The notes under the pieces were generated by a model. It was given only the letters and a program-made list of their open reading frames with translations. It did not search any database and was not told where the DNA came from. From ANME-2 cluster archaeon (GTDB taxonomy: Archaea > Halobacteriota > Methanosarcinia > Methanosarcinales > Methanocomedenaceae): DNA of 52,130 nucleotides. The stretch is from assembly GCA_014237145.1 (NCBI GenBank), contig JAAXOC010000008.1:1-52130 (forward strand), read 5' to 3'. The number at the start of each line of letters is the position of its first letter. Within the stretch, counting starts at the first letter, position 1. Both the position numbers and the translations under genes were made by a program. Shown here piece by piece: positions 14,069-51,964 of the stretch.

Positions 14069-14233
14069 AAATAACACCTTTTCAAAATAGAATCATATTT
14101 ATATCTTCAAATTTCTCAGATCTAACTTGCCGATATAATCCATATATCCGAAAGTCATGCATCGCTTTAAATTTCATCATAATTTTTCAAACCCTTTTGT
14201 AACAGACCATCTCACATTCTGATATTTTTCACT

Positions 14234-28890: not shown

Positions 28891-29436
28891 ATGGTTAAAA
28901 CAATATTAACTCTGGCTGTAATGCCAAAGGATGATATATCTCCTGAGAAAAAAGTCATTGGAGATGTTTTTTTAAATACATCAATGATAACAAAACCTAT
29001 CATAAAACATAGTACAGGATATTTTTTATTATTAAATTTTCCAAAAGTGAAGTTCATTCTCACAGTAGGTGGTGCATTTTACAAACAGGAAGATTTCAGT
29101 ATAGATTTTACATCGATCGATCGTGAACACCCATTCATTGATCTTTTTCTACAACCAAAAGCCAACTATCCTTTTCCGGAAGGAATGACAATTATAAAAG
29201 GTAAGATCATTGATTCTAAATATATGCCAGTTCCCAATGCTTCTATAAAAGTCAAGGGAGCTGTGTCGGATAATATTTCCCAAGAGGATGGTAGTTTTTT
29301 CATCCGGTTTAATACCAAACATAAAGCTAAAAAATCAACACTCAATATTGTTAAGGATGGGTATAAACCAAAGAAACTAACAGTTTCATTAATAATTGGT
29401 AAGACTATACAAGCACAGACAATACAATTAACTTAA
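28891..29436 (+). CDS. Carboxypeptidase-regulatory-like beta-sandwich protein of the eCIS
   Basis: In this 181-residue protein the last 80 residues form a CarboxypepD_reg-like (transthyretin-type) domain: GMTIIKGKIIDSKYMPVPNA, then QEDGSFFIRF and VKDGYKPKK. The first 100 residues form another beta-rich domain of unknown type (TLAVMPKDDISPEKKVIGDV). There is no signal peptide or membrane helix. Proteins of this design often sit beside DUF4255 genes in eCIS loci and probably contribute to the particle's cap or surface. The same fold reappears three times in each tether protein at 45993 and 48026. Confidence 0.7.
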   Translation: MVKTILTLAVMPKDDISPEKKVIGDVFLNTSMITKPIIKHSTGYFLLLNFPKVKFILTVGGAFYKQEDFSIDFTSIDREHPFIDLFLQPKANYPFPEGMTIIKGKIIDSKYMPVPNASIKVKGAVSDNISQEDGSFFIRFNTKHKAKKSTLNIVKDGYKPKKLTVSLIIGKTIQAQTIQLT

Positions 29437-30150: not shown

Positions 30151-31695
30151 ATGAGTCAATATCTATCGCCAGGAGTCTATGTTGAGGAAAAGTCCTCAGG
30201 AGTAAAGCCAATTGAAGGAGTAGGTACTTCAACTGGTGCTTTTGTAGGAATCACCGAAAAGGGACCAATAGGTAAAGCAGAGCTGATAGCAAACTGGACA
30301 CAGTTTGTTAATAAATTCGGAGGTTATATTGCCAATGGAAATATGGCATATGCAGTGAATCAATTTTTCAATGAAGGAGGAACAAGATGCTATGTTGTTC
30401 GAACCTGCCATTATTCGGATATACAGGATCTGAATACAAAAGCGTCTTCACCTTCAGCCGGGACATTAACAGACAGCAGTAATGAACCCGCACTAAGGGT
30501 TTTGGCATCATCTGATGGGGAATGGGGTGATGAAATATCAATTGACGTTGAAGCCGCCACTGATCCTGAACTTGAAGAAAACGGATTCAAACTGATCGTC
30601 AAATATAATGATATTGAAATAGAAGCAATTGATGACCTTACCATAAACAATGTAGAAGATAAGATCAATAATAATGATTTATCTTATATCAGAGTTGAAA
30701 AGGATGACTGGGATGAAGGAAGTCCTCCTAATAGCGTTGCAGGTTCGGGAAATAAACCACGTATTGACCAACCAATTACTCTTCAAGAAGGTGATGATGG
30801 TATAAATGATCTGAAATCTACGGATTTTATTGGTGATGAAAGTGCACAGAACGGCCTTTATGCATTTGATGTGATCGATGATATTAACATAGTAGCTATT
30901 CCTGATATGGCAGGAGAAAGAGGGGTAATGCTGGCAGGACTAAATTACTGCCAGGTCAGAGGTGACTGCTTCTTTGTTGCTGATCCTCCTTCTGATTTAA
31001 GCCCAATGGAAATACTCGATTTCAAGAAAGGAACTGGTGATTATAGAGGAAATGCATTTAATTCCTCATATGGAGCACTGTATTATCCATGGATTAAAAT
31101 CACCGACCCGGCAACAGGAAGGATAAAAACCGTACCTCCATCCGGAGCTGTTGCAGGTACGTATGCTAAGACCGACACAGTCAGAGGAGTCCATAAAGCA
31201 CCTGCTGGTATTGTAGAAGGTTATCTTGATACTGTTACTGGTATTGAAAAGATAATCACGAAAAGTGAACATGACGGATTGAACCCTACGGGAATAAATG
31301 TGATCCGCTCCTTCCCGTCATCAGGAATCTGCATCTGGGGTGCAAGAACTCTCTCCGCCGATCCTGAATGGAAATATATCAACATCAGACGGCTATTTAT
31401 TTTCCTTGAAGAATCCATTGACAAAGCTACTCAATGGGTAGTTTTTGAGCCGAACACTCCTTCTCTGTGGGGATCTGTAAAAAGGAATATTACAGCATTC
31501 CTTTTAAGGGTCTGGAGAGATGGTGCTTTATTCGGAAATACTCCTGAAGAGGCTTTTTATGTTAAGGTTGATGAAGAGAATAATCCGACTGAAGTCAGAG
31601 ATGCAGGACAGCTTATCATAGAGATTGGAGTAGCACCTGTAAAACCGGCTGAGTTCGTAATAATCAGGATCAGCCAGAAAACGTTGACAAAGTAA
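30151..31695 (+). CDS. Contractile tail sheath protein
   Basis: The 514-residue protein starts SQYLSPGVYVEEKSSGVKP and continues STGAFVGITEKGPIGKA, the classic phage and eCIS sheath N-terminus. The C-terminal domain has WVVFEPNTPSLWGSVKRNIT, FLLRVWRDGALFG, the FYVKVDEENN stretch and a final strand VAPVKPAEFVIIRISQ, which in known sheaths interlocks neighbouring subunits. This is the Pvc2-4-like component whose contraction drives the tube. Only one sheath gene is present, while PVC/Afp have three. ATG follows GGAGG by 6 bases. Confidence 0.95.
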   Translation: MSQYLSPGVYVEEKSSGVKPIEGVGTSTGAFVGITEKGPIGKAELIANWTQFVNKFGGYIANGNMAYAVNQFFNEGGTRCYVVRTCHYSDIQDLNTKASSPSAGTLTDSSNEPALRVLASSDGEWGDEISIDVEAATDPELEENGFKLIVKYNDIEIEAIDDLTINNVEDKINNNDLSYIRVEKDDWDEGSPPNSVAGSGNKPRIDQPITLQEGDDGINDLKSTDFIGDESAQNGLYAFDVIDDINIVAIPDMAGERGVMLAGLNYCQVRGDCFFVADPPSDLSPMEILDFKKGTGDYRGNAFNSSYGALYYPWIKITDPATGRIKTVPPSGAVAGTYAKTDTVRGVHKAPAGIVEGYLDTVTGIEKIITKSEHDGLNPTGINVIRSFPSSGICIWGARTLSADPEWKYINIRRLFIFLEESIDKATQWVVFEPNTPSLWGSVKRNITAFLLRVWRDGALFGNTPEEAFYVKVDEENNPTEVRDAGQLIIEIGVAPVKPAEFVIIRISQKTLTK

Positions 31696-33184: not shown

Positions 33185-35902
33185 ATGAATAGATACAATA
33201 TATTTGTTAAGATTTTACAGGATAGAATATCAAAGCCGCCTGTTGGAATTGACGGTTTTGCTTTTTCTAAAAATATAGTTCGCAGATATGGTATTTTCAG
33301 AAATTCAGGCCGACTGCCTTCATTGATATTCCTCAGGTTATTTGGTAATAGAAGCGTTAATAAGAAAATTAATTTAAATAATCAAATATTTATTAATAAT
33401 TCTATCAAATCTTTTAATATACAGTATCCGGAAGTATTCAGGCAATATTGTTCATATTTTCCAATTGCAGATATAAATATATCTCAGGAAAAAGCAAATA
33501 TTTCAATTTCGGAGCAAGGCGGGATTGTTAATAATATTATTAAAAATACTATATCACATGAACACATAACTAATAAGTATTATGAAACTGGAGATGCCAG
33601 GTCATTTCCTATCTCAAGCACGACAATTAGAGCACCAGGAATTACTGTAAATTCAATAAATCCTATAGTTAGTAATTATTTACAGAGATTTATTAATATT
33701 AAAAATACAGGTCCTACATTTAATAAACCGATTTATCCGGAAGTACAGTATTTTGCTTATGATGACCATTTTTTAAAATTGTTGCAAATAATTAAACAAA
33801 AAAGACCTATTGCAGATAAAAATATATCTCAAGAAACAGCAAATATTTCAATTCCAAAGCAAGGCGGGATTGTTAATACTAATACTAATATTAATAATAC
33901 TATATCACATGAACATATTACTAATAGGTATTATGAGACTGGAGATGCCAGGTCATTTCCTATCTCAAGCACGACAATTAGAGCACCAGGAATTACTGTA
34001 AATTCAATCAATCCCATAGTTGGTAATTATTTACAGAGATTCATCAATATTATAAAAACAGGTTCTAAATTTAATAAACCGATTTATCCGGAAATACAGT
34101 ATTTTACTAATGAAAAACATCTTTTTAGATTATTACAAATAATTAAAAAAAACAAATCAATTGCAGATAAAAACATAACTCAAGCATCAGGAATTACTGT
34201 AAATTCAATAAATCCTATAGTTAGTAATTATTTACAGAGATTCATCAATATTACAAAAACAAGTTTTAAATTTAATAAACAGACTTATCCGGAAATACAG
34301 TATTTTACTAATGAAAACCATGTTTTTAGATTATTAAAAATAATTAAAAAAAACAGATCAATTGCAGATAAAAACACATCTCAAGCAACAGCAAATATTT
34401 CAATTCCAAAGCAAGGCAGGATTGTTAATAATAATATAAATAATACTATACCACATGAATACATAACTAACAAGTATTATGAGACTGGAGACTACATATC
34501 ATTTCCCATCTCAAGCACGACAGTTAGAGCATCAGGAATTACTGTAAATTCAATAAATCCTATAGTTAGCAATTATTTACAGAGATTCATCAATATTAGA
34601 AATACAGGTCCTGAATTTAATAAACCGATTTATCCGGAAATACAGTATTTTACTAATGAAAAACATCTTTTTGAATTATTACAAATAATTGAAAAAAACA
34701 GACCAATTATATACAAAAATATATCTCAGAAAACTGCAAATATTTCAATTCCAAAGCAAAGCGGGATTATTAATAACAATAATATTAATAGTACTATACC
34801 ACATAAATACATAACTATTAAGCATTATGAGACTGGAGATGACATATCATTTCCCATCTCAACCTCGACAGTTAAAGCATCAGGAATTACTGTAAATTCA
34901 ATTAATCTTATAGTTATTAATTATTTACAGAGATTTATCAATATTAGAAATACAGGTTCTACATTTAATAAACCGATTTATCCGGAAATGCAGTATTTTG
35001 CTAATGAAAATCATCTTTTTAGATTATTACAAATAATTAAACAAAACAGATCAATTGCAGATAAAAACACATCTCAAGAAACAGCAAATATTTCAATTCC
35101 AAAGCAAGGCAGGATTGTTAATAATACTAATAATACTAATATTAAATATACCATACCACATGAATACATAACTAATAAGTATTATGGAACTGGAGACGAC
35201 ATATCATTTCCCACCTCAAACACGACAGTTAGAGCATCAGGAATTACTGTAAATTCAATAAATCCTATAGTTAGTAATTATTTACAGAGCTTTATCAATA
35301 TTAGAAATACAGATTCTAAATTTAATAATCCGATTTATCCGGAAATACAGTATTTTACTAATGAAAAACATCTTTTTAAATTATTACAAATAATTAAAAA
35401 AAATAGATTTATTGAAGATGAGAATGTATCTAAAGAAACAGCAAATATTTCAAACTCACAGCAAAGTAGAATTGTTGACGATACTGGACTTTATTATCAT
35501 ATAATTAAAAAAAATTCTAAGATCACCAATCATTTTCAAGAAATTAATAGTGATAATAATATAAGTCCAAGAGTCATTCATCCCCTTATATATGGATTAC
35601 ATCCTTCTTTTAATGAAGAGGAACAAATTCATAAAAAGATTTTTCCAATACAAGATGTTGATCTCATATATGCCAGCGAACCTGTTCTCAATATACCCAC
35701 TTCACAAAATGCAAATAATGTTCAGGAAAAAATTGAAAAAATACCTGATAGAAGTATAAATTCAACAAGAATAAATGAAAGCCTGATAAAAGAATCCTCG
35801 CAGCACAGATCAGTTCATGAAATTCACATGATTGCCGATAAGGTATACAAGATAATCGAGAAAAAGATATCAATAGAAAAGGACAGGAGAGGTTTATTCT
35901 AA
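33185..35902 (+). CDS. 905-residue Asn/Ile-rich repeat protein between tube and baseplate genes
   Basis: I do not recognise a family. A basic N-terminus (about 1-60, NRYNIFVKILQDRISK and IVRRYGIFRNSGRLPSLIFL) precedes six tandem repeats of about 115-120 residues (about 80-760). Each repeat holds ITVNSINPIVSNYLQRFINI, FNKPIYPEIQYFTNE, LFRLLQIIKKNRSIADKN, ANISIPKQGGIVNN and YITNKYYETGD. The third copy is short, lacking about 50 residues. The C-terminal 140 residues are unique and end in a charged helix (IHMIADKVYKIIEKKISIEK). Repeats are very AT-rich, Asn/Ile/Lys-heavy, with no signal peptide or membrane helix. It overlaps the LysM gene start by one base (TAATG), so it belongs to the operon. 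Candidate roles are structural linker, tape measure or cargo. Confidence 0.7.
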   Translation: MNRYNIFVKILQDRISKPPVGIDGFAFSKNIVRRYGIFRNSGRLPSLIFLRLFGNRSVNKKINLNNQIFINNSIKSFNIQYPEVFRQYCSYFPIADINISQEKANISISEQGGIVNNIIKNTISHEHITNKYYETGDARSFPISSTTIRAPGITVNSINPIVSNYLQRFINIKNTGPTFNKPIYPEVQYFAYDDHFLKLLQIIKQKRPIADKNISQETANISIPKQGGIVNTNTNINNTISHEHITNRYYETGDARSFPISSTTIRAPGITVNSINPIVGNYLQRFINIIKTGSKFNKPIYPEIQYFTNEKHLFRLLQIIKKNKSIADKNITQASGITVNSINPIVSNYLQRFINITKTSFKFNKQTYPEIQYFTNENHVFRLLKIIKKNRSIADKNTSQATANISIPKQGRIVNNNINNTIPHEYITNKYYETGDYISFPISSTTVRASGITVNSINPIVSNYLQRFINIRNTGPEFNKPIYPEIQYFTNEKHLFELLQIIEKNRPIIYKNISQKTANISIPKQSGIINNNNINSTIPHKYITIKHYETGDDISFPISTSTVKASGITVNSINLIVINYLQRFINIRNTGSTFNKPIYPEMQYFANENHLFRLLQIIKQNRSIADKNTSQETANISIPKQGRIVNNTNNTNIKYTIPHEYITNKYYGTGDDISFPTSNTTVRASGITVNSINPIVSNYLQSFINIRNTDSKFNNPIYPEIQYFTNEKHLFKLLQIIKKNRFIEDENVSKETANISNSQQSRIVDDTGLYYHIIKKNSKITNHFQEINSDNNISPRVIHPLIYGLHPSFNEEEQIHKKIFPIQDVDLIYASEPVLNIPTSQNANNVQEKIEKIPDRSINSTRINESLIKESSQHRSVHEIHMIADKVYKIIEKKISIEKDRRGLF
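33420..35460 (+). repeat. Six tandem ~350-bp repeats
   Basis: The AGGAATTACTGTAAATTCAA core recurs at about 33636, 33987, 34187, 34531, 34879 and 35238. Spacings are therefore about 351, 200, 344, 348 and 359 bp. Copy three has lost about 150 bp. The first two copies are nearly identical over long stretches, so this is a recently expanded array. All copies keep one frame. Confidence 0.88.
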
Positions 35903-39019: not shown

Positions 39020-42010
39020 ATGCAAAATAAAAAGCCTGTTCTGGATAACAGGACATCAGAAGAGATATATCAACAGACACTGGAACTTGCCAGTACGTAC
39101 TGTCCTGAATTGACCATCCATGATGAGGCGGGATATTTTGATACTGACAATCCAGGTCTGGTATTGCTCAAACTCTTTTCGAAGATGACAGAGATGCTGA
39201 TTGTACAGCTTAATAAAATTCCGGATAAACAAAGACTTGCCTTTTTTAACTTTGCAGGAATAAATCTGCTGCCGGCCAGACCATCAAAGGTTCCATTAAC
39301 ATTCTATCTCACAGAAGGTTCATCAGTTGCTACTGTTGCATCAGGTACAAGAGTAGCTTCATCAGATGACCCGGATGTGGTCTTTGAAACAGGGCAGGAT
39401 CTAAGTGTTGTTCCGGCTGCACTTACGGCTGTTTTTTCTTTTAATCCATGGGAGGATAAATATACTGATCATTCGGAATTTATATCAGGAAGTGAAGATG
39501 GTTTTTCAATCTTTGGACAAAGTTCCAATGAAAAGCCAGTTGATCATATACTCTATCTGGGTGATGATATATTACTCAATATTCAGCGACCTGTGGATCT
39601 AATGATCCATTTTAAAGGGAGGGATCTTAAGCGGGATTTCTTTTATACGTGGTATGACAGTAATGAGAATCCTGTTAAAAACCCTAAGTTTTATAATGTA
39701 GGAACAGAAGAATTAGATATTTCTTTTCATATAGAAAAGCTGGAACCAACTTATATTAATGGGGTCAAAAGTTTCTGGTTATCAGCAAGACCAAAGAAGG
39801 ATATGCAAATAGTCAAAGGAGTTAAACTACCCAGTATCTCTCACATTACTGTAGATATATCCATAAAACACATTACACCTGATATTGCCTTTGCAAATAT
39901 TACACCTGTAGATCTGGCAATGGGTTTTTATCCGTTTGGAGAGGAACCAAAGCAGAAATCTGCATTTTACATAGGATCAAATGAGGCTTTTTCAAAGGAG
40001 AATGCTACTATTTCTCTATATTTCGGGTTTGAAGATGACAGGAAATTTGAAGTAAATACTTATCCATGGGAATACTGGAACGGGAGTGAATGGGAATTAC
40101 TGGAATTAATAGATACTGAAAAAAAGTCTGGTGATCAGGTTAGATTTATCTGTCCTTCTATTCTTCCATTAGAAATCAACGGTCAGTTGAACAGATGGAT
40201 AAGGGTAAAAAACATATATGATTATGAAAGAAAATTTGAGACAAAAGGTATTGATGATATAATCCACCGATTTCCTGAAGAATATGAAAAATATAAAAAA
40301 GATTTTTCCAGGATTTTTACTGAAATGGGCATTGCTGTCGCAGTTGAATATAAAATACCAGATCAACATCCTCCTTTTATTAAATCTTTAACTATCTCAT
40401 ACAGCTATCATAAAAAAGAAATTGAAAGAATTAAATCCTTAAACTATTTCCAATTTAAGGACCTTCAACCCGGAAATAAACCCTTTGCATCTTCAAATAA
40501 AAAGCCAGCTTTATATCTTGGTTTTAATAAGAATATTGCAAATATGCCGTTAACCCTTTTTTTTGCGCTTAAGATGAAGCTTTTTAATGAAACTGACAAT
40601 ATAATTATACATCCGGATCTTAAAGATCAATTTGATCAAGAACCGGATTATTTATTGACTGTTAAGGAACCAACTGACCTTGTATATAAATATTTCAATG
40701 GTGTTTTATGGAAAGATATTACTGTTGAAGATGAAACAGATTGCTTAGAAACAGGTGGGATTGTTAGTTTTGTAGGTCCTTCTGATATTAAACGTACCCT
40801 GGAATTTGAAAGGGAAATGTACTGGATCAAAATGGAGATCAATAAGGGTAATCGGGTGTCCTGCCCTAAATTAATAGGTATTTTTCCAAATACGGTCCGG
40901 GCAATGAACATTGTAACTGTTAAGGATGAGATACTTGGTTCAGGTAACGGGCACAGTGATCTTACACTTTCTTTTTCAAAAAAACCTATACTTGAAGGAG
41001 AGATAATTGAGGTAAAAGAGATCAGAGTTTTATCAAAAGATGAAATAACCTCTATGGTCTCAAAAAAACAGAGGGATTTACTAAAAAAGCAGGAGGGATC
41101 AGGTAAAATCCAGGAAATATGGGTAAGATGGCATGAAATAAAGGATTTTGCACTTTCTGATCCTCTAGGCCGTCATTATATTCTTGATAGAGCAAACGGC
41201 AGGATAACTTTTGGTGATGGTATCAGGGGCATGATACCTCAAAACGGAAAAAATAACATTATTGCACGGAAGTATATAAGCGGAGGTGGTAAAAAGGGTG
41301 ATGTAAGAGCCGGGATGATCACATCGTTAAAAACTGCCATTCCAAATATAGAAAGTGTGGCCAACCACATCCCATCATCCGGAGGTAGTAACCAGGAGAC
41401 TCTTGACCAGGCAATCGAACGCGGACCCTATACCATTAAAAGCAGGAATAAAGCTATTACTAAAGAGGATTTTGAGTGGCTTGCATATGAATCCTCACAA
41501 TATGTTGCCAGGGCAAAATGCATACCTGATAATGACAGGATAAATGTTATCATAGTGCCGAAATTTGATAGTGCTGCTCCGCTACCTGACATTGGACTTC
41601 TGGATATGGTCGAAAGGTATCTTAAAGATAGAGTCTTTTTTTTAATTCTTAATAAAATAGAGGTAATTGGTCCTGATTATAAGGAAATTACTATCGATTT
41701 GAAATTCAAGCCGTTAATTACGACCGGAAGTACTATTGTAATGGATAGGATAAAAAAAAGGCTTGAATTATATCTGCATCCCTTACAAGGCGGTCACAAT
41801 GGAAAGGGATGGGAGTTCGGACAGGACATTTTTATCTCAAAGATAGCGGCGTTAATCGAAGGTATTGAAGGTGTGGATTATATTACTGACATTATACTTA
41901 CAAAGGACGAAAAAGAGAAAATTGATAAAAAATCAGGTGTGGAACATATCCGGATCGAACCTAATGCTTTGCCCTGCTGCGGTAATATCAATGTGACAAT
42001 TGAAGGATGA
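39020..42010 (+). CDS. Large baseplate J/gp6-like protein (Pvc11-like)
   Basis: The 996-residue baseplate assembly protein carries the family elements YFDTDNPGLVLLKLFSKMTE near the N-terminus, VWWRWHEIKDF-like strands in the middle (IWVRWHEIKDFALSDPLGRH), and DRANGRITFGDGIRGMIPQN, followed by YISGGGKKGDVRAGMITSLK and ERGPYTIKSRNKAITKEDFE. It builds the wedges that surround the hub. Its start directly follows the gp25 stop, and a gene with related function follows after 3 bases. Length is in the range for eCIS gp6-like proteins. Confidence 0.9.
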   Translation: MQNKKPVLDNRTSEEIYQQTLELASTYCPELTIHDEAGYFDTDNPGLVLLKLFSKMTEMLIVQLNKIPDKQRLAFFNFAGINLLPARPSKVPLTFYLTEGSSVATVASGTRVASSDDPDVVFETGQDLSVVPAALTAVFSFNPWEDKYTDHSEFISGSEDGFSIFGQSSNEKPVDHILYLGDDILLNIQRPVDLMIHFKGRDLKRDFFYTWYDSNENPVKNPKFYNVGTEELDISFHIEKLEPTYINGVKSFWLSARPKKDMQIVKGVKLPSISHITVDISIKHITPDIAFANITPVDLAMGFYPFGEEPKQKSAFYIGSNEAFSKENATISLYFGFEDDRKFEVNTYPWEYWNGSEWELLELIDTEKKSGDQVRFICPSILPLEINGQLNRWIRVKNIYDYERKFETKGIDDIIHRFPEEYEKYKKDFSRIFTEMGIAVAVEYKIPDQHPPFIKSLTISYSYHKKEIERIKSLNYFQFKDLQPGNKPFASSNKKPALYLGFNKNIANMPLTLFFALKMKLFNETDNIIIHPDLKDQFDQEPDYLLTVKEPTDLVYKYFNGVLWKDITVEDETDCLETGGIVSFVGPSDIKRTLEFEREMYWIKMEINKGNRVSCPKLIGIFPNTVRAMNIVTVKDEILGSGNGHSDLTLSFSKKPILEGEIIEVKEIRVLSKDEITSMVSKKQRDLLKKQEGSGKIQEIWVRWHEIKDFALSDPLGRHYILDRANGRITFGDGIRGMIPQNGKNNIIARKYISGGGKKGDVRAGMITSLKTAIPNIESVANHIPSSGGSNQETLDQAIERGPYTIKSRNKAITKEDFEWLAYESSQYVARAKCIPDNDRINVIIVPKFDSAAPLPDIGLLDMVERYLKDRVFFLILNKIEVIGPDYKEITIDLKFKPLITTGSTIVMDRIKKRLELYLHPLQGGHNGKGWEFGQDIFISKIAALIEGIEGVDYITDIILTKDEKEKIDKKSGVEHIRIEPNALPCCGNINVTIEG

Positions 42011-42013
42011 GAT

Positions 42014-43312
42014 ATGCCAATTACACTTCCTGATCTTGATACTAAAACATATCAGGATATTGTAGATGAGATGCTTGCATCTATTCCTAATTATACTGAT
42101 AAATGGACAAATTACAATGTATCTGATCCTGGTATTACTATACTTGAGATGGTTTGCTGGATCACAGAGGCAACATTATACAGGATAAACAAAATACCAG
42201 ATGCATCATATGTCAATTTCCTGCGGCTCTTAGCAGGAGTCTCAGGTATCGATGATATCGACCGTTTGTTAGCAGATCCCAATCTTTTCAGGTCTCACAG
42301 GGATATTCTTGAATTCCTACTAGAGATCGAAACAGGAAATGAGACAAATATTATAGATATGAAAGCGGCAGCTTTAACATTTTTAAATTCACGGTACAGG
42401 GCAGTAACCAGAGAGGACTTTCGTGAACTTGCTATTGAAGCTACTGACTCTGATCTGTTCCATACCAGTGATCTCAAGGATACTGTCAGATTACTTGTTA
42501 AATTGAGTGATGCCAAAGATCATGTATCCCTTTTTATCTATGGGTCTTTTTCTTCGACTATGAAGGGACTACTTGAAAGATTTGATAGATCAGCGCCTTT
42601 ATCACCATTACTTCAACAAACATTAATTGATGAATTGAACAGGTTGATCCAAAGCGGCTATATCAACAAAGAAGAATCCTTTTCAGAAGTGGAACTGAGT
42701 GACAGGACTAAAGTATTGATGCAAAAACAAGAATTGCATGGAGAAGCTCATATACTTCTAAACAGAATGCTCCTTGAAGATGCCTACCCTGATCAACTTG
42801 AAAAAATAGCTAACCGTGCTAAGGTTATCAGGGCGATCGTAGATCAATCTACGAAAGGAGAAAAGGTCAGGATAATCATTGTATCCAACAGGCGGGATAA
42901 GTATAAGGCACTTATAGAACAGGTGAAAGAATACTTAGATCCCAGACGTCTTATAGGAACAGTGATCGAAGTGAGCAGTCCTGTTTATACTGGTGTTGGG
43001 ATTCATGTGAAGATAGAACCTACTTCATATGAAAAAGTAGAGATAGTCCGGGAGAATGTAAGGACAAGGATCTTGAATTATCTTGATCCTTTAACAGGTG
43101 GTTCCAAAGGCAGCGGATGGCCATATGGAAGACCCCTTATCATTTATGAGGTAGTTCAGGTGGTGGAAGATACCAACGGCGTCAAACGAACTGTCAGTGT
43201 AGTGATCGATAACGATGATGATCTGAGAATAAAAGCAATAGACGGACTTATTGATGTTTCTGTTAAAGTAGAAGTAATGGAGGAAGTTGCAGGCGATGAA
43301 TTCCAAAAGTAA
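42014..43312 (+). CDS. Second baseplate J-like protein (Pvc12-like)
   Basis: The 432-residue protein starts ITLPDLDTKTYQDIVDEMLA and YNVSDPGITILEMVCWITEA, a strong eCIS baseplate signature. It also has NSRYRAVTREDFRELAIEAT, then the C-terminal region EYLDPRRLIGTVIEVSSPVY and YLDPLTGGSKGSGWPYGRPL. It pairs with the larger J protein to form the wedge heterodimer, as gp6/gp7 do in T4. It starts 3 bases after that gene and overlaps the next. Confidence 0.9.
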   Translation: MPITLPDLDTKTYQDIVDEMLASIPNYTDKWTNYNVSDPGITILEMVCWITEATLYRINKIPDASYVNFLRLLAGVSGIDDIDRLLADPNLFRSHRDILEFLLEIETGNETNIIDMKAAALTFLNSRYRAVTREDFRELAIEATDSDLFHTSDLKDTVRLLVKLSDAKDHVSLFIYGSFSSTMKGLLERFDRSAPLSPLLQQTLIDELNRLIQSGYINKEESFSEVELSDRTKVLMQKQELHGEAHILLNRMLLEDAYPDQLEKIANRAKVIRAIVDQSTKGEKVRIIIVSNRRDKYKALIEQVKEYLDPRRLIGTVIEVSSPVYTGVGIHVKIEPTSYEKVEIVRENVRTRILNYLDPLTGGSKGSGWPYGRPLIIYEVVQVVEDTNGVKRTVSVVIDNDDDLRIKAIDGLIDVSVKVEVMEEVAGDEFQK

Positions 43313-44009
43313 ATACATGGAGTATCTTCCATCAGTATTTTACGAGACAGTAAAGGACGGGAAGGTTCCTTTTATCACACAATATCTTAAAATATTTGAA
43401 AAAATATTAAGTGGAATTGATGATGATGCATTAAATGGAAGAAAGGGTATCGCAGAGGTGCTTGATATCATTCCTGAATTATTTCATCCCCGCTTCTCAT
43501 TCATATTTGGTGAAACGTCTTTTTTGCATCCTATAGAAAATAATAACAAAGAACTCTTCAGGAAATATTTCAATACTAATATAGATACGCAAGAGTTCAT
43601 GAATATTTATGTAGATGAATTCTTAGAATGGCTGGCAAGCTGGGTAGCCCTTGTATTGAAAGAGGACTGGGATATTGAAAGAAAAAGAAAGGTTATTGCA
43701 GGTATCATTCCAATATTTCGAATGCGCGGGACTAAAAAGGGACTGGAAGAATATCTATGGATATATACTGGAACTGATGTGAATATTATTGAAGAAGTAG
43801 AACCATTTCAGGTAGGGATAAGATCGACTGTTGGAGAGAATACTATATTAGGTGGACTACCACCCTATTTTTTTATTGTTAATGTGGACCTGCCTGCATC
43901 TGATAATATAACCATAAATAACAAACGAAAGGTAATTAAGAAAATCATTGAATCAGAAAAACCTGTACATACAAATTATTCGATAAATATCAAAATAGAA
44001 GATTCATGA
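43296..44009 (+). CDS. Tail protein I-like baseplate protein
   Basis: The 237-residue protein matches the phage tail protein domain found in eCIS and P2 gpI: YMEYLPSVFYETVKDGKVPF at the start, then FITQYLKIFEKILSGIDDDA, FLEWLASWVALVLKEDWDIE and GIIPIFRMRGTKKGLEEYLW. It connects baseplate wedges with the fibre. The start is uncertain: ATG 43296, or TTG 43287, which is nearer the GGAGGA SD. Both give a coupled overlap with the previous gene. The T-run at 44014-44020 follows. Confidence 0.88.
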   Translation: MNSKSKYMEYLPSVFYETVKDGKVPFITQYLKIFEKILSGIDDDALNGRKGIAEVLDIIPELFHPRFSFIFGETSFLHPIENNNKELFRKYFNTNIDTQEFMNIYVDEFLEWLASWVALVLKEDWDIERKRKVIAGIIPIFRMRGTKKGLEEYLWIYTGTDVNIIEEVEPFQVGIRSTVGENTILGGLPPYFFIVNVDLPASDNITINNKRKVIKKIIESEKPVHTNYSINIKIEDS

Positions 44010-44035: not shown

Positions 44036-45013
44036 ATGACAATTAAAAGGTTGAACTATTTTACCGGACAGTTCTTAGAGGAGAACGATTTTAAGGACGA
44101 ACAGCAGTATCATCTAAATGCTATCAGGTCACATAGTAAGAACCTGCATATATGGGGTATTGCATACGGTCTTAATGTTACGTTTACGCGTGGTGACAAG
44201 TATGTGATGGTTTCAGGTGGTATGGCTGTTGATGGTCAGGGAAGGCAGATCATACTTGATGAGGATAAGCAGATCGATCTTTTTGCGGCTACGGCAACAA
44301 CGCTTTATTTGACCATATCATACGACCAGAGCCAGAGTGACCCTACTGAGGAGACAGGAGTAAAAGGATATTCCCGCATTACGGAACATCCTGATATAAA
44401 GTACGATCCGGAAATGCCTGATGAACCTGCAACAAAGATCTTGCTGGCTAAGTTGATACTGGATCCTAACAAAATGACTATTCACCAGATCGTTATTGAG
44501 GATCGAAAATATGCTGGTGCCGTAGGAGGTGATATGGTTGTTAGAAGCTTGAGCTTCCTGCTTCCCACTTATTCGAATAAGCTGCCTGTGATGAGAGGTA
44601 TCGATGATGGGGTAGAGTTTAATTCTGATAATACTACACATACTGGTAATCTTAATGTCGCTGGCATATTGACTGGAAACCTTGATAAGGATATGGTAGG
44701 TAAGGATCAAATTATTGATAGATCAGTCCCGATCTCAAAATTCAAGACCCATAAAAGGTCAAGTGAAGAGATATTAGGTGAAAAACCGATCGAGATCAAT
44801 GCTAATTCTGAGAAAGAAGTACATTCTGAACTTTCTAATACACACAGGTTCTTTATAACCAGTGTACTTCCAACTACTCCTGACTCAGCTATTGAATGGA
44901 GGTGGGTTGTTAATTTTCATAGAAATCAATATTTCTATAGATTGATGGTAAAGAACCTGTCTGATAAGACAATTGGTGTCAGATTTAAATATTACGATAT
45001 ATTGGAAGAATAG
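44036..45013 (+). CDS. Fibre-like/receptor-side eCIS protein
   Basis: The 325-residue protein starts MTIKRLNYFTGQFLEENDFK and continues DEQQYHLNAIRSHSKNLHIW, a signature of eCIS proteins in the slot of the fibre gene. The middle has MVSGGMAVDGQGRQIILDED, HPDIKYDPEMPDEPATKILL, then a region with NLNVAGILTGNLDKDMVG, like phage fibre shafts, and a C-terminal beta domain of about 80 residues. It probably mediates attachment to a target or to the producer's envelope. Target cannot be predicted. AAGGAGAT lies upstream of ATG. Confidence 0.7.
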   Translation: MTIKRLNYFTGQFLEENDFKDEQQYHLNAIRSHSKNLHIWGIAYGLNVTFTRGDKYVMVSGGMAVDGQGRQIILDEDKQIDLFAATATTLYLTISYDQSQSDPTEETGVKGYSRITEHPDIKYDPEMPDEPATKILLAKLILDPNKMTIHQIVIEDRKYAGAVGGDMVVRSLSFLLPTYSNKLPVMRGIDDGVEFNSDNTTHTGNLNVAGILTGNLDKDMVGKDQIIDRSVPISKFKTHKRSSEEILGEKPIEINANSEKEVHSELSNTHRFFITSVLPTTPDSAIEWRWVVNFHRNQYFYRLMVKNLSDKTIGVRFKYYDILEE

Positions 45014-45295: not shown

Positions 45296-45970
45296 ATGCA
45301 ATCAGAATCTCAAACCAATACCCGGAACAACTCCAATGAATTCCTTAAGGAAATAACCAGAGGTATTCTATATACTCACACACGCATCAATGCCAATACC
45401 ACCAGGAACTTAGAAGCGTCCTCATTTCTTTACGCACTCATAGAACTGCTGAGTGAAAAGGATATACTCTCAATTGAAGAGCTGGATGAGCGCAAAAAGC
45501 AGGTGGCACATCGGCTGGTAAATAAATTTGTAGAGAGTAAAATAGGGCTTTTGTACCAGGATCCGGAATGTGATAAATATACTTTTGAACATGAAACTGA
45601 TGTCGATTGTGAGAGCAGGCGGCATATCTGCAAAGCTATATGCTGTAAATTTCCTTTTGCTCTATCAAGACAGGATGTAGAAGAGGGTGCTATCAGATGG
45701 GAATTTGGCAGACCTTACCTTATAGCTCATGATGCTGATGGTTATTGCATTCATCTGGATAGGGAGAGTTACAGGTGTACGGTATGGGAGCAGCGGCCTG
45801 TGCCCTGCCGGGGATTTGACTGTGAGGATAATGAGAAATGGAAGGTGTGGGAGGATTTTATAGAGATGATAATTAATGATGAGATGATCAAGCAGATAGA
45901 TGATAGTAATGAGAAAATTTATACTGATCAGAAATCAAATGTTAATAATGATGACAAAGTTGAGGAGTAG
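45296..45970 (+). CDS. YkgJ-type cysteine-cluster protein, intact copy
   Basis: The 224-residue protein has an N-terminal helical region (about 1-85) with NTTRNLEASSFLYALIELLS, and a C-terminal cysteine-cluster domain: CESRRHICKAICCKFPFALS, GYCIHLDRESYRCTVWEQRP, VPCRGFDCEDNEKWKVW. This C-X3-CC ... C ... C ... C-X4-C spacing suits metal (Fe-S or Zn) binding as in YkgJ/CxxCxxCC proteins. The exact chemistry is not known. GAGGTAGATC provides the SD. Decayed copies follow at 47744 and 50560, each beside a tether gene. Confidence 0.8.
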   Translation: MQSESQTNTRNNSNEFLKEITRGILYTHTRINANTTRNLEASSFLYALIELLSEKDILSIEELDERKKQVAHRLVNKFVESKIGLLYQDPECDKYTFEHETDVDCESRRHICKAICCKFPFALSRQDVEEGAIRWEFGRPYLIAHDADGYCIHLDRESYRCTVWEQRPVPCRGFDCEDNEKWKVWEDFIEMIINDEMIKQIDDSNEKIYTDQKSNVNNDDKVEE

Positions 45971-45992: not shown

Positions 45993-47441
45993 ATTAGAAT
46001 ATTTGGTACAATTCGTGATTCACAGAATAGAAATCCTGTTGCAGAGGCAAACATCAGGCTTAGTATCGAAGGTATGCAGATAGCCTCTATTTCTACTAAT
46101 GAGCAGGGTGAATATGAATATACAACAGAGGAAGATTATCCGGAGCAGACACTGGACATCATCATAGAAAAGGAAGGTTTTGAAAGAAAGAACATTTCTT
46201 GCGAGATCGATAAAGCTGAAATTAAGTCAGATATTCTATTGAATAATCTTGAAAAAGGAACAAAAGAGAAAACAAGGATCTTTGGCACTATTCGAAATTC
46301 AAAGAACCGTGACCCTGTTAAGGCTGCAAGTATCACACTTAATATCGAAGGTACGCAGATAGTTGCCATCACTTCTGATGAACTGGGTGGATATGAATAC
46401 ACAGCAGAGGAAGATTATATAGGACAGACTTTGGATTATGTCATCCAGAAAGAAGGTTTTATAAGAAAAGATATTTCACATGAGATAGATAGATTTGAGA
46501 TCAAATCAGATATCCTGATAGATGAAATTGAAATTAAGATAAAAGGAAAGGTATGCGATGAAACAGACAATCCTCTTGATAATGCCAGTATCAGTTTTTC
46601 AATAGGTAACTCAACAATAAACCTAAATTCTGATAAGGATGGATCATTCTCATTTAACATAGGCCAGCAGTTCTTGAACCAGACTATTGGATATGAAACC
46701 AGTAGAGAAGGATTCAAGATCAAGCGTGGAAAATTAACGTTGATAGAAGACCTGAAATGCATTAATTTATTTAAGGACATTCTTATTGATAATGGATCTA
46801 ATAATATAAATTGGATAAAGGTAGCTGCAATTGGAATCATATTAGTCGGTATAGCTATAATTTTATTAGGGAATACAACGGAAGATATACCACCTGAACT
46901 ATCAACAGATCCTGACCCAATAAACTTTGAATTTGTACCCGGAATAGGTGCTCAGACCTTTTCGATATGGAATGACGGAGACGGAACCCTGGAATGGGAT
47001 GTTTACAGTGACCGGGATTGGATAATAGTATCTCCTGATGTTGGAACTGATGATGGTACGGTTTCTGTTATTTTGAATAGTGCTGGCATGTATCCAGGGA
47101 GGCATACCGGAAGAATTACTGTGGAATCAAATGGGGGAACCAAGACAGGGATGATATTTTTGCATATACCGGAAGATGGCAAACCACCATCAAGGGCACC
47201 AGAAATTCACATTTTTATGGCAGATCCTGAGTATATTGATGGTCCGGAAGGTGAAACTACTTTAAGCTGGGAAGTATCTGGTGCTACAAGTGTCATTATC
47301 GATGGAGTAGGACCTGTGGAAGTATCAAAGGGCTCAATAGACAAATGGATTTCTCAAACTACAACTTTCACTATTAGAGCTATGAATGATGTAGGAGAAG
47401 TTGCTAAATCCATAACAGTGCATGTTGAAAAGCCATATTGA
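45993..47441 (+). CDS. Membrane-anchored tether protein, copy 1 (CarboxypepD_reg x3 - TM - BACON - Ig)
   Basis: About 482 residues. Three carboxypeptidase-regulatory-like repeats (about 1-260) share IFGTIRDSQNRNPV/IFGTIRNSKNRDPV and GEYEYTTEEDY. Next come one membrane helix (about 273-293; WIKVAAIGIILVGIAIIL), a BACON domain (FVPGIGAQTFSIWNDGDGTL; DWIIVSPDVGTDDGTVSV) and an Ig-like domain (GPEGETTLSWEVSGATSVII). There is no N-terminal signal, so the helix may act as signal anchor. ATT 45993 is my chosen start: the domain's first strand begins there, GAGGGTGAT lies just upstream, and no ATG/GTG/TTG precedes the first repeat. ATG 46074 would cut the first domain. It ends where decayed BACON sequence begins, so it is shortened relative to copy 2. 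Confidence 0.75.
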   Translation: MRIFGTIRDSQNRNPVAEANIRLSIEGMQIASISTNEQGEYEYTTEEDYPEQTLDIIIEKEGFERKNISCEIDKAEIKSDILLNNLEKGTKEKTRIFGTIRNSKNRDPVKAASITLNIEGTQIVAITSDELGGYEYTAEEDYIGQTLDYVIQKEGFIRKDISHEIDRFEIKSDILIDEIEIKIKGKVCDETDNPLDNASISFSIGNSTINLNSDKDGSFSFNIGQQFLNQTIGYETSREGFKIKRGKLTLIEDLKCINLFKDILIDNGSNNINWIKVAAIGIILVGIAIILLGNTTEDIPPELSTDPDPINFEFVPGIGAQTFSIWNDGDGTLEWDVYSDRDWIIVSPDVGTDDGTVSVILNSAGMYPGRHTGRITVESNGGTKTGMIFLHIPEDGKPPSRAPEIHIFMADPEYIDGPEGETTLSWEVSGATSVIIDGVGPVEVSKGSIDKWISQTTTFTIRAMNDVGEVAKSITVHVEKPY

Positions 47442-47444
47442 CTT

Positions 47445-47743
47445 TATATCCGGATCCACCTTCGTTTAAATTTGAACTTGGGACTCATTTCAATATAATT
47501 GAAGCGAATACAAGGACATTTTCAATTTCGAATTCTGAGGATGGAGATCTACATTAGTCAATTCATACCGAAGAAGGATATCTAAAGGAGAAGGACGAAG
47601 GCTACCATGAAAGAAGATTTTTCATTGATTGAAATGGTGGAACTTATGAAGGTAAAATAAACCTGGACCTTTTTTATAATCGTCCTTTTATCCCTCCGTA
47701 ATTCGTTAAAAAAGATTCACTATAAATAAATAATGAAGATGAG
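47445..47743 (+). pseudogene. Decayed BACON-domain tail of tether copy 1
   Basis: After the stop at 47441 another frame reads LYPDPPSFKFELGTHFNIIE and TFSISNSEDGDLH, then a TAG, then frame-disrupted fragments with NGGTYEGKINLDLF. This matches the BACON pattern (DP--F-F--G---TFSI-N-GDGTL; NGGT--G) of the tether proteins. So copy 1 once extended further, as copy 2 still does. From about 47690 to 47743 no homology is evident. Confidence 0.65.
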
Positions 47744-48003
47744 AGTTCGACAGGTCTTATCTGATCGCTCACGACGATGATGGTTACTGCATTCATCTGG
47801 ATAGGGAGAGTTACAAGTGTATGGTGTGGGAGCATCGGTCTGTGCTCTACCGGGGATTTGACTGTCAGGATAATGAGAAATGGAAGGTGTGGGAAGATTT
47901 TGTAAAGATGGTAATAAATGATGAGATGATTAAGCAGATAGATGATAGTAATGAGAGAATTCATACTTATCAGAAATCAAAATATAATAGAGTTGAAGAG
48001 TAG
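47744..48003 (+). pseudogene. YkgJ-type protein, 5'-truncated second copy
   Basis: The frame reads EFDRSYLIAHDDDGYCIHLD through to KWKVWEDFVKMVINDEMIKQ and matches the last 85 residues of the intact protein at 45296 very closely. The N-terminal 140 residues are gone, and a conserved Cys of the VPCRGFDC motif has become Tyr (VLYRGFDC). Only an internal ATG (47821) could start it. The following tether gene keeps the same spacing and start region as copy 1. Confidence 0.8.
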
Positions 48004-48025
48004 AAATTAAACAGAGGGTGATATT

Positions 48026-50494
48026 ATTAGAATATATGGTACAATTCGTGATTCGCAGAATAAGGACCCTGTTGCAGGGGCAAACATCAGGCTTAGTATC
48101 GAAGGTATGCAGATAGCTTCTATTACTACTGATGAGCAGGGTGAATATGAATATGCAACAGAGGAAGATTATCTGGAGCAGACATTGGACATTATCATAC
48201 AAAAGGAAGGTTTTGAAAGAAAGAACATTTCTTATGAGATCGATAAAGCTGAAATTAAGTCAGATATTCTATTGAATGAGCTTGAAAAAGGAACTAAAGA
48301 GAAAACAAGGATATTTGGCACTATTCGAAATTCAAAGAACCGTGATCCTGTTAAGGATGCAAGTATCACACTTAGTATCGAAGGTACGCAAATAGCTTCA
48401 ATTTCTTCCAATGAGCAGGGTGAATATGAATACACAGCAGACGAAGATTATATAGGACAGACATTAGATTTTGTCATCAAGAAAGAAGGTTTCATAAGAA
48501 AAGATATTTCTCATGAGATTGATAAATTTGAGATCAAATCGGATTTTCTGATGGATGAAATTGAAATTAAGATAAAAGGTAAAATCTGTGATGAAACAGA
48601 TAATCCTTTGGGTAATGCCAGTATTAGTTTTTCAATAGGTGGCTCAACAATAGATCTGGTATCTGATAAGGACGGATCATTTTCATTCACTATAGGCCAG
48701 CAGTTCCTGAACCAGACAATTGGATATGAGGCTAATAAAGAAGGCTTTAAGATTAAAAGCGGGAAATTGAAATTAATTGAAGATCTAAGATGTATCAATT
48801 TATCTAAACCTATTCCCGAGCCTATTCCTGAACCTATTCCTGATCCTAATAGATGGATAAAGATTGCTGCAATTGGAATCACATTAGCTGCTATAGCTAT
48901 AATTTTAATACTGATCATAACACCTGAATTATCAACGAATCCTGATCCAATAGACTTTGATTTTGTACCCGGGACGGGTGCTCAGACCTTTTCAATATGG
49001 AATGACGGATACAGAACCCTGGAATGGGATGTTTCCAGTGACCAGGATTGGATAATAGTTTCTCCTGATAGTGGAACTGAATCTGGTACGGTTTCTGTTA
49101 GTGTAAATAGTGGTGGCATGGATCTGGGATTGCATACCGGAATAATTACTGTGGAATCAAATGGGGGAACCAAGACAGGGAGAATATCCTTGGTTATAAC
49201 AGACGAAACAATATTAGATGCACCAGTAATCCATAACTTTAGTGCCGAACCTAAGCATATAGATGGTCCGGAAGGTGAAACCACATTAAGCTGGGAAGTA
49301 TCTGGTGCTACTAGCGTTACTATCGATGGAATTCCTGTGAAAGTACCAGCAGGCTCAATGATAAGAGTAGTTGGAGAAAATACCCTTTTCACCCTTATGG
49401 CAACTAATGATGCTGGAGTATCTGACGTAAGAGATACCAAAGTGTATGTTGGAGTATTACCTTCGGATTTACCAATAATTGATTCCTTTTATGCCAATCC
49501 TCCTGATATTTCTGAAGGAGGGAATTCCACATTATACTGGGAGGTTTCTGGTGCTACAAAAGTTACTATCGATAGAGAAAGAATGAATCCAGTTTATGGA
49601 AATACAGTTGTGTATCCCGAGATAAATACCTCTTATGAGCTTACAGCTACGAATGAAGCAGGAGAAGCTGATAGTACTGTTACAGTGACCGTTAAAGCAG
49701 GACCCGGAGAGGGAGGTATTCTAATGCCAAAATTATCTGTAGATCCGAATAAACTCGACTTTGGCACTATATATGTGGGAGATGAAAAATCCCTGACATT
49801 CGAGATATCAAATGATGGAGGGGGAACCTTAGACTGGCGTGTGAAGAATTACCCGAAATGGATAGAAATAAAACCAATTTTAGGATCTTCGGGAATGGTT
49901 ACTGTTACCAATACTGCAAGATATGAGCCTGACACTTATAAGGGAGAAATTGTGATTGATTCAAATGGTGGAAATAAAACAATAAATGTTTATTTAACCG
50001 TTGATGATATTAAATATGTCAAATATCTCGTATCTCAGGAGAAGGACTTGACCGTGCCTAATGGATTATGTAAAGATGGTACGAAAGAATGTAGACTTTT
50101 GTATAGAAATCACGGAGGTTATTACTATGCTATGGTCGGAAATTATGTTGCTTTGAACGGTAATCCCGAAAAGCTGAAAGAGATCATTTTTGAACAAAAA
50201 ATTGATGATGAGATACTTCTTCATGTTGGTAAACCGTCTAAGATTTCAGATGGTATTGAACTTACTGCAGTGGAAATCGATCTTGAGGGACAAAACGTAT
50301 GGCTTACATTAACTCAAGATGGCAAAGAATTAACATCAAGTAATGTTGGGAAAGGAGAAATATTCACCTATACGGAAAAACAAATCGAGGGTGAATCTGA
50401 TGTACCGATGTTTGTTGCTTATGTTGAAACAATGTTTGCTGGAATGAATACAAATATGGTCAAGATACGCTATGTTTGGTCGATAATCCAGTGA
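48026..50494 (+). CDS. Membrane-anchored tether protein, copy 2, with S-layer-like C-terminus
   Basis: About 822 residues. Three carboxypeptidase-regulatory repeats (about 1-260), a Pro-Glu-Ile linker (PIPEPIPEPIPDP) and a membrane helix (about 276-298) are followed by BACON 1 (about 300-392), two Ig-like domains (about 395-560; GPEGETTLSWEVSGATSVTI, EGGNSTLYWEVSGATKVTI) and a second BACON-like domain (LSVDPNKLDFGTIYVGDEKS). The last 160 residues resemble the Methanosarcinales S-layer duplication domain (DUF1608-like): NVWLTLTQDGKELTSSNVGK, GEIFTYTEKQIEG, VPMFVAYVETMFAG. ATT 48026 follows GAGGGTGATATT exactly as in copy 1. The first 260 residues are about 90% identical to copy 1. It could anchor at the membrane and sit in or under the S-layer. 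Confidence 0.78.
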   Translation: MRIYGTIRDSQNKDPVAGANIRLSIEGMQIASITTDEQGEYEYATEEDYLEQTLDIIIQKEGFERKNISYEIDKAEIKSDILLNELEKGTKEKTRIFGTIRNSKNRDPVKDASITLSIEGTQIASISSNEQGEYEYTADEDYIGQTLDFVIKKEGFIRKDISHEIDKFEIKSDFLMDEIEIKIKGKICDETDNPLGNASISFSIGGSTIDLVSDKDGSFSFTIGQQFLNQTIGYEANKEGFKIKSGKLKLIEDLRCINLSKPIPEPIPEPIPDPNRWIKIAAIGITLAAIAIILILIITPELSTNPDPIDFDFVPGTGAQTFSIWNDGYRTLEWDVSSDQDWIIVSPDSGTESGTVSVSVNSGGMDLGLHTGIITVESNGGTKTGRISLVITDETILDAPVIHNFSAEPKHIDGPEGETTLSWEVSGATSVTIDGIPVKVPAGSMIRVVGENTLFTLMATNDAGVSDVRDTKVYVGVLPSDLPIIDSFYANPPDISEGGNSTLYWEVSGATKVTIDRERMNPVYGNTVVYPEINTSYELTATNEAGEADSTVTVTVKAGPGEGGILMPKLSVDPNKLDFGTIYVGDEKSLTFEISNDGGGTLDWRVKNYPKWIEIKPILGSSGMVTVTNTARYEPDTYKGEIVIDSNGGNKTINVYLTVDDIKYVKYLVSQEKDLTVPNGLCKDGTKECRLLYRNHGGYYYAMVGNYVALNGNPEKLKEIIFEQKIDDEILLHVGKPSKISDGIELTAVEIDLEGQNVWLTLTQDGKELTSSNVGKGEIFTYTEKQIEGESDVPMFVAYVETMFAGMNTNMVKIRYVWSIIQ

Positions 50495-50559
50495 TCTAAT
50501 TATTGATTAATATTAACAGATGAACAACTCATCCGGAAAATCAAACCAATATCAAGATC

Positions 50560-51197
50560 AGCTTCAGTAAAATCCGGCAGGAAATAACCAGAGGTTTATT
50601 CTATACCCATAAACCCATTAATACCAACACTACCAGAACTTTAGAAGCAACCTCGTTTCTCATTACACTTATCGAGTTGCTCAGTAAAAATTACATACTT
50701 TCTATTAATGAGATAGATGAGCGTAAAAAGCAGGTTGCAGAGCGGCTGGTGAGGTAATTCGTAGAAAGCGGCATCGGGCTATTGTATCAAGACTCTGAGT
50801 GTGATAAGTACACATTCGAACATGAAGCCTGGGTTGATTGTTTGAGCTGACTGCCTGTCTGTAAGGCTGTCTATTGTAAATTTCCCTTTGCACTCTCCAA
50901 ACAGGATGTGGAATAAGGGCTCATCCACTAGGAATTTGGCAGCCCTATCTGATCGCCCATGGTGATGACTGTTACTGCGTTCATCTTGATCGGGAGACAT
51001 ACAAGTGTACAATATATGAACATCGCACTGTACCGTGCAGGGGATTCGGGTGCCAGGATAATGAAAAATGGCAGGTATGGCTGGATTATGAAAAGAAGGT
51101 CATTAATCCTGAACTGATGGAGCAGATTGATGAAAGCAATGTGAAGATCTACTCTTTTCCAGAAGTGAAATTAACATCGAATAGCAGTACCAAATGA
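50560..51197 (+). pseudogene. YkgJ-type protein, third copy, with several stops and a frameshift
   Basis: Readable homology covers nearly the whole protein: RQEITRGLFYTHKPINTNTT, then KKQVAERLVR followed by TAA, then ESGIGLLYQDSECDKYTFEH, a TGA after VDCLS, PVCKAVYCKFPFALSKQDVE, a TAA and a TAG. A frame change near 50945 leads to LIAHGDDCYCVHLDRETYKC and VPCRGFGCQDNEKWQVWLDY. At least four stops and one frameshift make it a pseudogene. No tether gene follows this copy; the DUF4157 gene comes next. Confidence 0.85.
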
Positions 51198-51241
51198 GGT
51201 GAATTGAAAAATATTCTAAAAGTTAAGTGGAGGTAAATAAT

Positions 51242-51964
51242 ATGGGAGAACGAATAAAGATAGATGCCAAAAAACCTTTGTCAACAAAGGAGAATTCGGC
51301 TTCAAATAAACAAAAGACCGGTTTTCGATCTCAAAACTCACCTGTTAATCGAATCCTGTATCTTCAAAGAACCATCGGCAACCAGGCTGTTCAGAGGATG
51401 GTCAGGTCAGGGGCTTTGCAGGCTAAGCTTAGTATTGGGCAGCCCGGGTATGTGTATGAACAGGAGGCGGACCGGGTCGCGGATGAAGTGATGCAGATGC
51501 CGGAGCCAGGGGTGCAGCAGCAGGTGGGGCCAGAAGAGGAAGAAGAGATTCAAACCAAGCCGTTGCCCAGCCAGACATCGGAAGTTGTCTCAGATGTGGA
51601 GACCAGCATCAACAGCATCAGAGGTGGTGGGCAGCCATTACCAGGATCTGCCCAAGCATTTTTTGAGCCGCGTTTTGGTCAAGACTTCAGCCAGGTGCGG
51701 GTGCATACTGATGCGCGGGCGGCTGATGTGGCGCGGGCGGTGAATGCACGGGTGTTTACGGTGGGGCAGGATATGGTGTTCGGGGCAGGGCAGTATACAT
51801 CAGGGACAAGGGAGGGACAGAGGTTGATGGCACATGAATTGACACACATAGTTCAGCAAAATCGATTGATCAGTAGGTCAATGAATCAAAAAAGTACCCC
51901 AATACAATTTGTTGCTCCTCCTCAAATGGGGCTTCAACAAAGATGGAAAACTTCCAGAAGTTGA
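51242..51964 (+). CDS. DUF4157 eCIS-associated protein with HELTH motif
   Basis: The 240-residue protein has an N-terminal disordered basic part (about 1-45) with VNRILYLQRTIGNQAVQRMV, GQPGYVYEQEADRVADEVMQ and an acidic linker, then the DUF4157 domain: GGGQPLPGSAQAFFEPRFGQ, DFSQVRVHTDARAADVARAV and QRLMAHELTHIVQQ. HELTH is a zincin-like motif. DUF4157 is the most typical eCIS-linked domain and is often fused to toxins. Here only about 25 residues follow it, so no toxin domain is attached. I chose ATG 51242 because GTGGAGGT (from 51227) is the SD. GC content is higher than in the neighbouring pseudogene region. Cargo, or an adaptor that loads cargo, is the likely role. Confidence 0.88.
   Translation: MGERIKIDAKKPLSTKENSASNKQKTGFRSQNSPVNRILYLQRTIGNQAVQRMVRSGALQAKLSIGQPGYVYEQEADRVADEVMQMPEPGVQQQVGPEEEEEIQTKPLPSQTSEVVSDVETSINSIRGGGQPLPGSAQAFFEPRFGQDFSQVRVHTDARAADVARAVNARVFTVGQDMVFGAGQYTSGTREGQRLMAHELTHIVQQNRLISRSMNQKSTPIQFVAPPQMGLQQRWKTSRS

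Follow-up and report, generated by a model that had tools for sequence, protein, structure and literature searches.

A candidate membrane tether with an S-layer-like head beside a contractile injection system of an ANME-2 archaeon

How might an archaeal contractile injection system (CIS), assembled in the cytoplasm, come to be held at the cell envelope or fired from it? The question is raised by a gene near the end of an extracellular CIS (eCIS) cluster in an anaerobic methanotrophic (ANME)-2 cluster archaeon. The window, that is, the whole stretch of DNA analysed here (52,130 nucleotides), is the entire contig C8 (JAAXOC010000008.1) of a genome of 2.97 Mb with genes for methyl-coenzyme M reductase, and its eCIS cluster extends from an AAA ATPase at 26060 to a DUF4157 gene at 51227. 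Two tether genes, A and B, lie between the baseplate genes and the cluster end; the longer, B, encodes three transthyretin (TTR)-like repeats, one membrane helix, a run of BACON and immunoglobulin (Ig)-like domains and an S-layer-like head. We favour, with moderate confidence, a reading of B as a bitopic membrane tether or firing trigger for the neighbouring cytoplasmic CIS. A protein of this type probably docks or triggers the machine at the membrane, because seven other archaeal genomes encode its relatives next to the same kind of machine.

Pfam placed three CarboxypepD_reg domains (1.7e-17) and two BACON_2 domains (2.2e-17) in B, followed at the C terminus by the S-layer family PF07752 (E 1.9e-20; 73.5 bits vs a cut-off of 30). 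An AlphaFold2 model was consistent with this order, with three TTR sandwiches (mostly at a predicted local distance difference test score of 70-96), a helix at residues 277-295 and, at the end, a beta-domain modelled with confidence (730-821); the three TTR-like repeats and the BACON/Ig domains of the original prediction were thus recovered. The open frame runs from 48011 to 50491, with the stop codon reaching 50494, and gives 822 amino acids if translation starts at 48026. A listed ATG at 48107 would remove the first 27 residues of TTR repeat 1 and is probably too late, because the start methionine of short relatives aligns with an ATT (48026 in B, 45993 in A) that is preceded by GAGGGTGAT. 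The relatives' tethers start with ATG or GTG where both window copies have ATT, which is the likely but unproven start codon of gene B, possibly a non-canonical one.

An argument for a role with the CIS comes from gene position. Among 186 genomes of the same order (named members being ANME-2, ANME-3, Methanosarcinaceae and Candidatus Methanoperedens), the TTR-helix module of B recurred in 8 others, always a few kilobases (under 10) downstream of the baseplate gene for Cis11. Seven of the eight (ANME-2 E20ANME2, UBA203, ANME-3 HMMV, ANME-3 HMMV2, CSMAG_2493, Zod_Metabat.786 and G119) encode, directly after CIS13, a protein of 375-407 amino acids made up of one TTR domain, a single helix and some 260 outer residues. 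Both A and B matched a profile of these short tethers (E 7e-22 to 4e-23) and belong with them to a family defined by a TTR-helix protein beside CIS baseplate genes. B itself lies in the CIS cluster next to baseplate genes, an arrangement conserved across genomes, and the eCIS linkage first proposed from the window holds in this wider sample. Scanning 393 sampled genomes of the phylum with the short-tether profile added few others, two of them from another order with proteins of two TTR domains (plus helix) beside eCIS AAA and DUF4157 genes; one resembles B in layout (31% identity over 479 columns). Scans of genome contigs with the full tether and of viral contigs with the tether alignment gave no relative. 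A further link had been drawn from the fold that the repeats share with the eCIS protein at 28891: both belong to the same TTR-like family (PF13715), yet the likeness goes no further than a domain that is very common, so the shared fold is weak evidence for the eCIS link.

The same gene positions bear on two alternatives. B might be a surface adhesin or sensor that simply happens to be encoded beside the CIS, its head sticking to S-layers or partners and the particle never touched; a conserved, predicted cytoplasmic TTR module with a strict place beside baseplate genes in other lineages makes this unlikely. B might instead be a cargo, with the TTR repeats as the loading part and the helix inserting into a target membrane. 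Its position next to the DUF4157 cargo-type gene at the cluster end would suit a cargo, as would a helix-less TTR-DUF4384 protein found directly after CIS13 in the eighth genome, G044 (L085:14107-15246:-). However, B carries no DUF4157 domain, its 822-residue chain of many Ig-like domains fits a tube lumen poorly, and the short relatives sit within the baseplate operon, and we regard a cargo role as highly improbable.

Topology was judged from hydropathy, charge and N-glycosylation sequons. Hydropathy of B revealed no hydrophobic N-terminal segment or signal peptide and a sole helix at residues 280-299, in agreement with the original prediction. Lysine and arginine precede the helix, with few or none after it, in 9/9 TTR-helix proteins measured, and in six short relatives 35 sequons fall within the 1587 residues that follow the helix, where about 16 would be expected, against 2 within the 601 that precede it. 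The charge bias and the short relatives' sequons favour a predicted single-pass topology with the TTR repeats inside and the C terminus outside; neither signal puts the repeats outside, the result that would have undone the proposal. A signal peptide is normally expected of adhesins, whereas conservation in B falls on the inner 279 residues, a further point against an adhesin.

What, then, would the outer end contact? The last ~115 residues of B are homologous to the solved Methanosarcina S-layer protein MA0829 (PF07752/DUF1608; PDB 3U2G; E 3e-7); the C terminus does match S-layer proteins, as the proposal required. The single PF07752 match spans positions 98-205 of the 259-position profile (about 108 positions), and TIGR01567 matched at E 3.9e-20 with 72.2 bits vs a curated cut-off of 121.9. 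Because the profile is only partly covered and TIGR01567 stays below its cut-off, the head of B is, by its sequence, one S-layer-like sub-domain rather than the whole duplication domain originally proposed, and B is not an S-layer protein. DUF1608-type S-layer proteins carry full domains in tandem, with a signal peptide in front and a helix at the C terminus (PMC3361143), and B has none of the three. Full or near-full PF07752 matches, mostly in tandem, occur elsewhere in the genome of B (contigs C73, C81, C98 and C42). The part found in B also stands by itself, frequently in several copies, in further surface proteins of this genome, in which BACON/Ig stalks and S-layer sub-domains are common, and this much speaks for an adhesin.

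When the last 162 residues of B were compared with the order, the best match (52% identity) was the C terminus of a CIS13 from G016, a genome of the same family. Next came a protein of G022 (helical N terminus, one helix, PKD repeats and the same head) and 934-residue DUF6519 proteins of G024 and G005 that adjoin divergent baseplate genes; the S-layer-like domain also occurs in CIS13 of G149, G171, G080 and G082 and in Cis11 of G059. Loci at which it ends CIS13 or DUF6519 fibre-position proteins, or lies inside Cis11 (G059), are L180:12498-14399:+, L142:12306-14255:+, L144:5251-6900:-, L145:2121-3635:-, L147:12689-14200:+, L202:5953-8754:+, L203:5822-8623:- and L135:9160-13575:-. DUF6519 has been described as a baseplate-anchor domain of fibres (PMC12923769). 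A small tree had united the eCIS-borne S-layer-like domains in a single clade, which we dropped when a more widely sampled tree showed none; because the wide tree does not unite them, the domain was probably recruited several times onto CIS proteins.

Since the sequence most closely related to the head ends a CIS13 particle protein, recognition of an S-layer accounts for the head as well as anchoring in one does. The kinship also suits a self-protection decoy, in which the head would imitate or cover the site on the S-layer that particles set free by the same or related archaea recognise, so that the producer is spared: the 52% match is to a particle protein's end, and related heads end several fibre-position proteins. 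A decoy would leave the conserved TTR module, predicted to be cytoplasmic, and the headless short relatives unexplained, and we consider it very unlikely. Apart from the tethers, a second family of membrane proteins shares a helical N terminus (KLSKEITEKY...), one helix and Ig/PKD/BACON repeats, with the S-layer-like head at the end of 4/6 members: L181:8237-10357:+ (G022), L201:2127-3836:- (G055), L199:6983-8752:- (G010), L200:10537-12309:+ (G011), L036:6998-8704:- (G016) and L130:6988-8631:+ (G080). This family adjoins the eCIS AAA gene in G016; on the other contigs there are no eCIS genes within the stretch read.

A correlate of the tether was found in CIS13, which measures 323-409 amino acids in tether clusters vs 504-1030 where a cluster has a single complete CIS13 and lacks a TTR tether. 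Two long CIS13 proteins, both from the Methanoperedens group and from clusters without a TTR tether, end in an S74 fibre chaperone (L086:12778-15291:+ in G067; L087:6202-8643:- in G041).

Several observations weigh against reading B as a tether. In a quick Cis11 tree, the eight clusters with a TTR-helix gene formed one side of one branch (support 95); because of this placement the correlation between short CIS13 and tether appears close to a single evolutionary event, and a count of nine independent cases was rejected. In the window, the CxxCxxCC gene separates CIS13 from the tethers, and there are two tether copies, not one. The sequons of B itself do not discriminate (4 before the helix, 4 after). 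The S-layer head is shared with particle proteins and missing from the short relatives, which also removes S-layer anchoring, part of the original prediction, as a trait of the family. A whole-chain fold search returned only generic Ig/beta-sandwich arrays, with TM-scores mostly near 0.1, and a first fold model, made of the relatives, was poor across the TTR part. Both the binding of B to the particle and its cellular location are predictions.

In the tether reading, the TTR repeats would lie in the cytoplasm on the peripheral baseplate, most likely on CIS13 or its neighbours, the single helix would span the membrane, and the BACON/Ig stalk and S-layer-like head would stand outside. Docking may keep the machine beneath the membrane, or recruit it there and fire it, as proposed for the Streptomyces protein CisA, and in the short relatives the tether would take the place of the long fibre protein of fibre-bearing systems. 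An S-layer, whether of the cell itself or of a neighbour, is probably what the head recognises, and through the head envelope state or contact may be linked to firing. More tentatively, and on balance doubtful, Methanosarcinales CIS might pass from a released to a membrane-held form and back by exchanging the operon-end protein (long fibre vs TTR-helix tether) while reusing one S-layer-recognition head on both, the tether coupling S-layer contact or damage to firing from inside. A similar dCache sensor protein with several helices lies downstream of the tether in five clusters (L078:6191-8317:-, L080:184-2331:-, L083:15510-17663:+, L084:14990-17104:+ and, in part, L079:115-1314:-; Pfam was run on all but L083); it had no match in the genome of B and is for that reason kept out of the mechanism.

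Firing at the membrane could also serve the death of the producer. In this special case, which overlaps with a tether, free particles would be recruited under stress as by CisA, and the producing cell would be killed with no export to a neighbour. CisA is bitopic, is encoded next to its CIS at the same gene position and is needed for firing, and when it is lost particles stay extended and cell death drops (PMC12237407); in G044, three genes beyond the TTR-DUF4384 gene and near eCIS genes, a protein combines caspase, TTR, helix, BACON and FGE-sulfatase domains (L085:6763-9189:-). Set against this, the window holds no cell-death gene, and in haloarchaea the CIS are bound to the membrane and kill neighbouring cells (PMC11566945). 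We hold producer suicide to be possible but not probable; the sequence does not discriminate between it and outward firing.

The coordinates of B, its parts and its neighbours are collected below.

Table 1. Tether gene B, its domains and other eCIS genes of the window
Feature	Position	Strand	Evidence or remark
Tether gene B, 822 aa: TTR x3 - membrane helix - BACON - Ig - Ig - BACON - S-layer-like head	48026..50494	+	
TTR-like repeat 1	48026..48289	+	profile of short tethers, E 4.4e-23
TTR-like repeat 2	48308..48571	+	profile of short tethers, E 5.7e-23
TTR-like repeat 3, then Pro-Glu-rich linker (IPEPIPEPIPDP)	48572..48830	+	Pfam, AlphaFold2
Single membrane helix, residues 280-299; K/R on N side, none in next 15 residues	48863..48922	+	hydropathy
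First BACON domain, residues 303-388	48932..49189	+	PF19190
Two Ig-like domains, resembling those of the TTR-helix-Ig protein L129	49217..49696	+	
Second BACON domain	49721..49993	+	PF19190/PF22544
S-layer-like head	50006..50491	+	PF07752 profile 98-205
Paralogue A, 482 aa, ends after first Ig domain, without S-layer-like head	45993..47441	+	
181-aa eCIS protein, C-terminal TTR-like domain	28891..29436	+	PF13715 E 6.6e-8
eCIS sheath-position protein, cluster marker	30151..31695	+	same gene position kept in relatives
Cis11 baseplate wedge	39020..42010	+	best solved relative: Streptomyces CIS baseplate 9GTP, E 2.3e-66
Second, shorter Cis11-type baseplate protein	42014..43312	+	TIGR02243, below cut-off
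Tail_P2_I baseplate protein (Cis12-like)	43287..44009	+	PF09684 E 1.3e-9
CIS13-family baseplate/fibre-position protein, short form (325 aa)	44036..45013	+	NF053767 E 1e-14, below curated cut-off
CxxCxxCC protein	45296..45970	+	PF03692 E 1.7e-5
DUF4157 (eCIS_core) protein, cluster end	51227..51964	+	PF13699 E 1.3e-31

Paralogue A is 76% identical to B across residues 1-465. The ratio of non-synonymous to synonymous substitution between the two lies at 0.12-0.36 for the TTR repeats and is higher, 0.55-0.77, for the helix, BACON and Ig parts; the faster evolution of the outer part than of the inner part would also suit an adhesin. Broken copies of the CxxCxxCC gene lie beside the tether genes at 47743-48000, 50524-50754 and 50880-51194. 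Because these three and the CxxCxxCC gene at 45296 flank two tether genes, a unit of CxxCxxCC and tether gene was probably duplicated.

Other proteins of the window were recorded in passing: one of 905 amino acids with long internal repeats, between the tube and LysM genes (33185-35902), one of 135 amino acids rich in TDESVISDE repeats (29742-30149), and a 1775-residue surface protein (Big_5, DUF1349) on the minus strand (8750-14077), whose C-terminal IPGFGLFAGLSVLLLAVQLLRKKK tail resembles that of a 1547-residue protein on contig C46. A role as cap adaptor was considered for the 181-residue protein at 28891 and dropped, as PDB searches with it and with CIS13 gave no CIS match.

Our literature search, whose coverage left many subscription papers outside, found no description of the TTR-helix protein. 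Membrane-held CIS are already known as a kind, of which a CIS with a TTR-helix tether would be a variation. The haloarchaeal study did not determine the contact-making protein and named methanogens and methanotrophs as unexplored (PMC11566945), and a possible part in the partnership with bacteria has been reported for such ANME clusters, with no anchor named (PMC9012536). The conserved TTR-helix protein is a concrete candidate for CIS-envelope attachment in ANME-2, ANME-3 and Methanosarcinaceae. That an S-layer-like head turns up repeatedly on CIS proteins suggests archaeal S-layers as what some of these machines target or sense.

Among known systems, a close parallel is CisA of S. coelicolor (SCO4242), which is bitopic, as predicted for B, and like B is CIS-linked and encoded at the same gene position; of all solved structures, the Cis11 of its CIS is the best match to the Cis11 of the window. 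By their descriptions the two are set apart: CisA has an unstructured N terminus and a substrate-binding-like outer domain (PMC12237407), whereas B has TTR repeats on its predicted inner side and BACON, Ig and S-layer-like domains on the outer one. In haloarchaea, CIS are found at the membrane, with Cis12 and Cis13 as proposed contacts and a six-helix protein as putative anchor; this protein, Hbor_38620, is like B an archaeal CIS-linked membrane protein, but has six helices and a cytoplasmic domain of ~150 residues and is encoded upstream of its cluster, where B has one helix and lies downstream of the baseplate genes (PMC11566945). The eCIS tail fibres with baseplate-anchor N termini (eBAP domains, DUF6519; PMC12923769, a study whose main text does not mention S-layer domains) share with the tether a gene position after Tail_P2_I; some archaeal members end in the S-layer-like domain of B, and unlike B the fibre-position proteins of the clusters compared here have no membrane helix. 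The thylakoid-anchored CIS (tCIS) of Anabaena, cited in two of these studies (PMC11566945, PMC12923769), is likewise held at a membrane via baseplate-linked parts; there the anchoring runs through extensions of baseplate or fibre components, whereas here it would fall to a separate TTR-helix protein.
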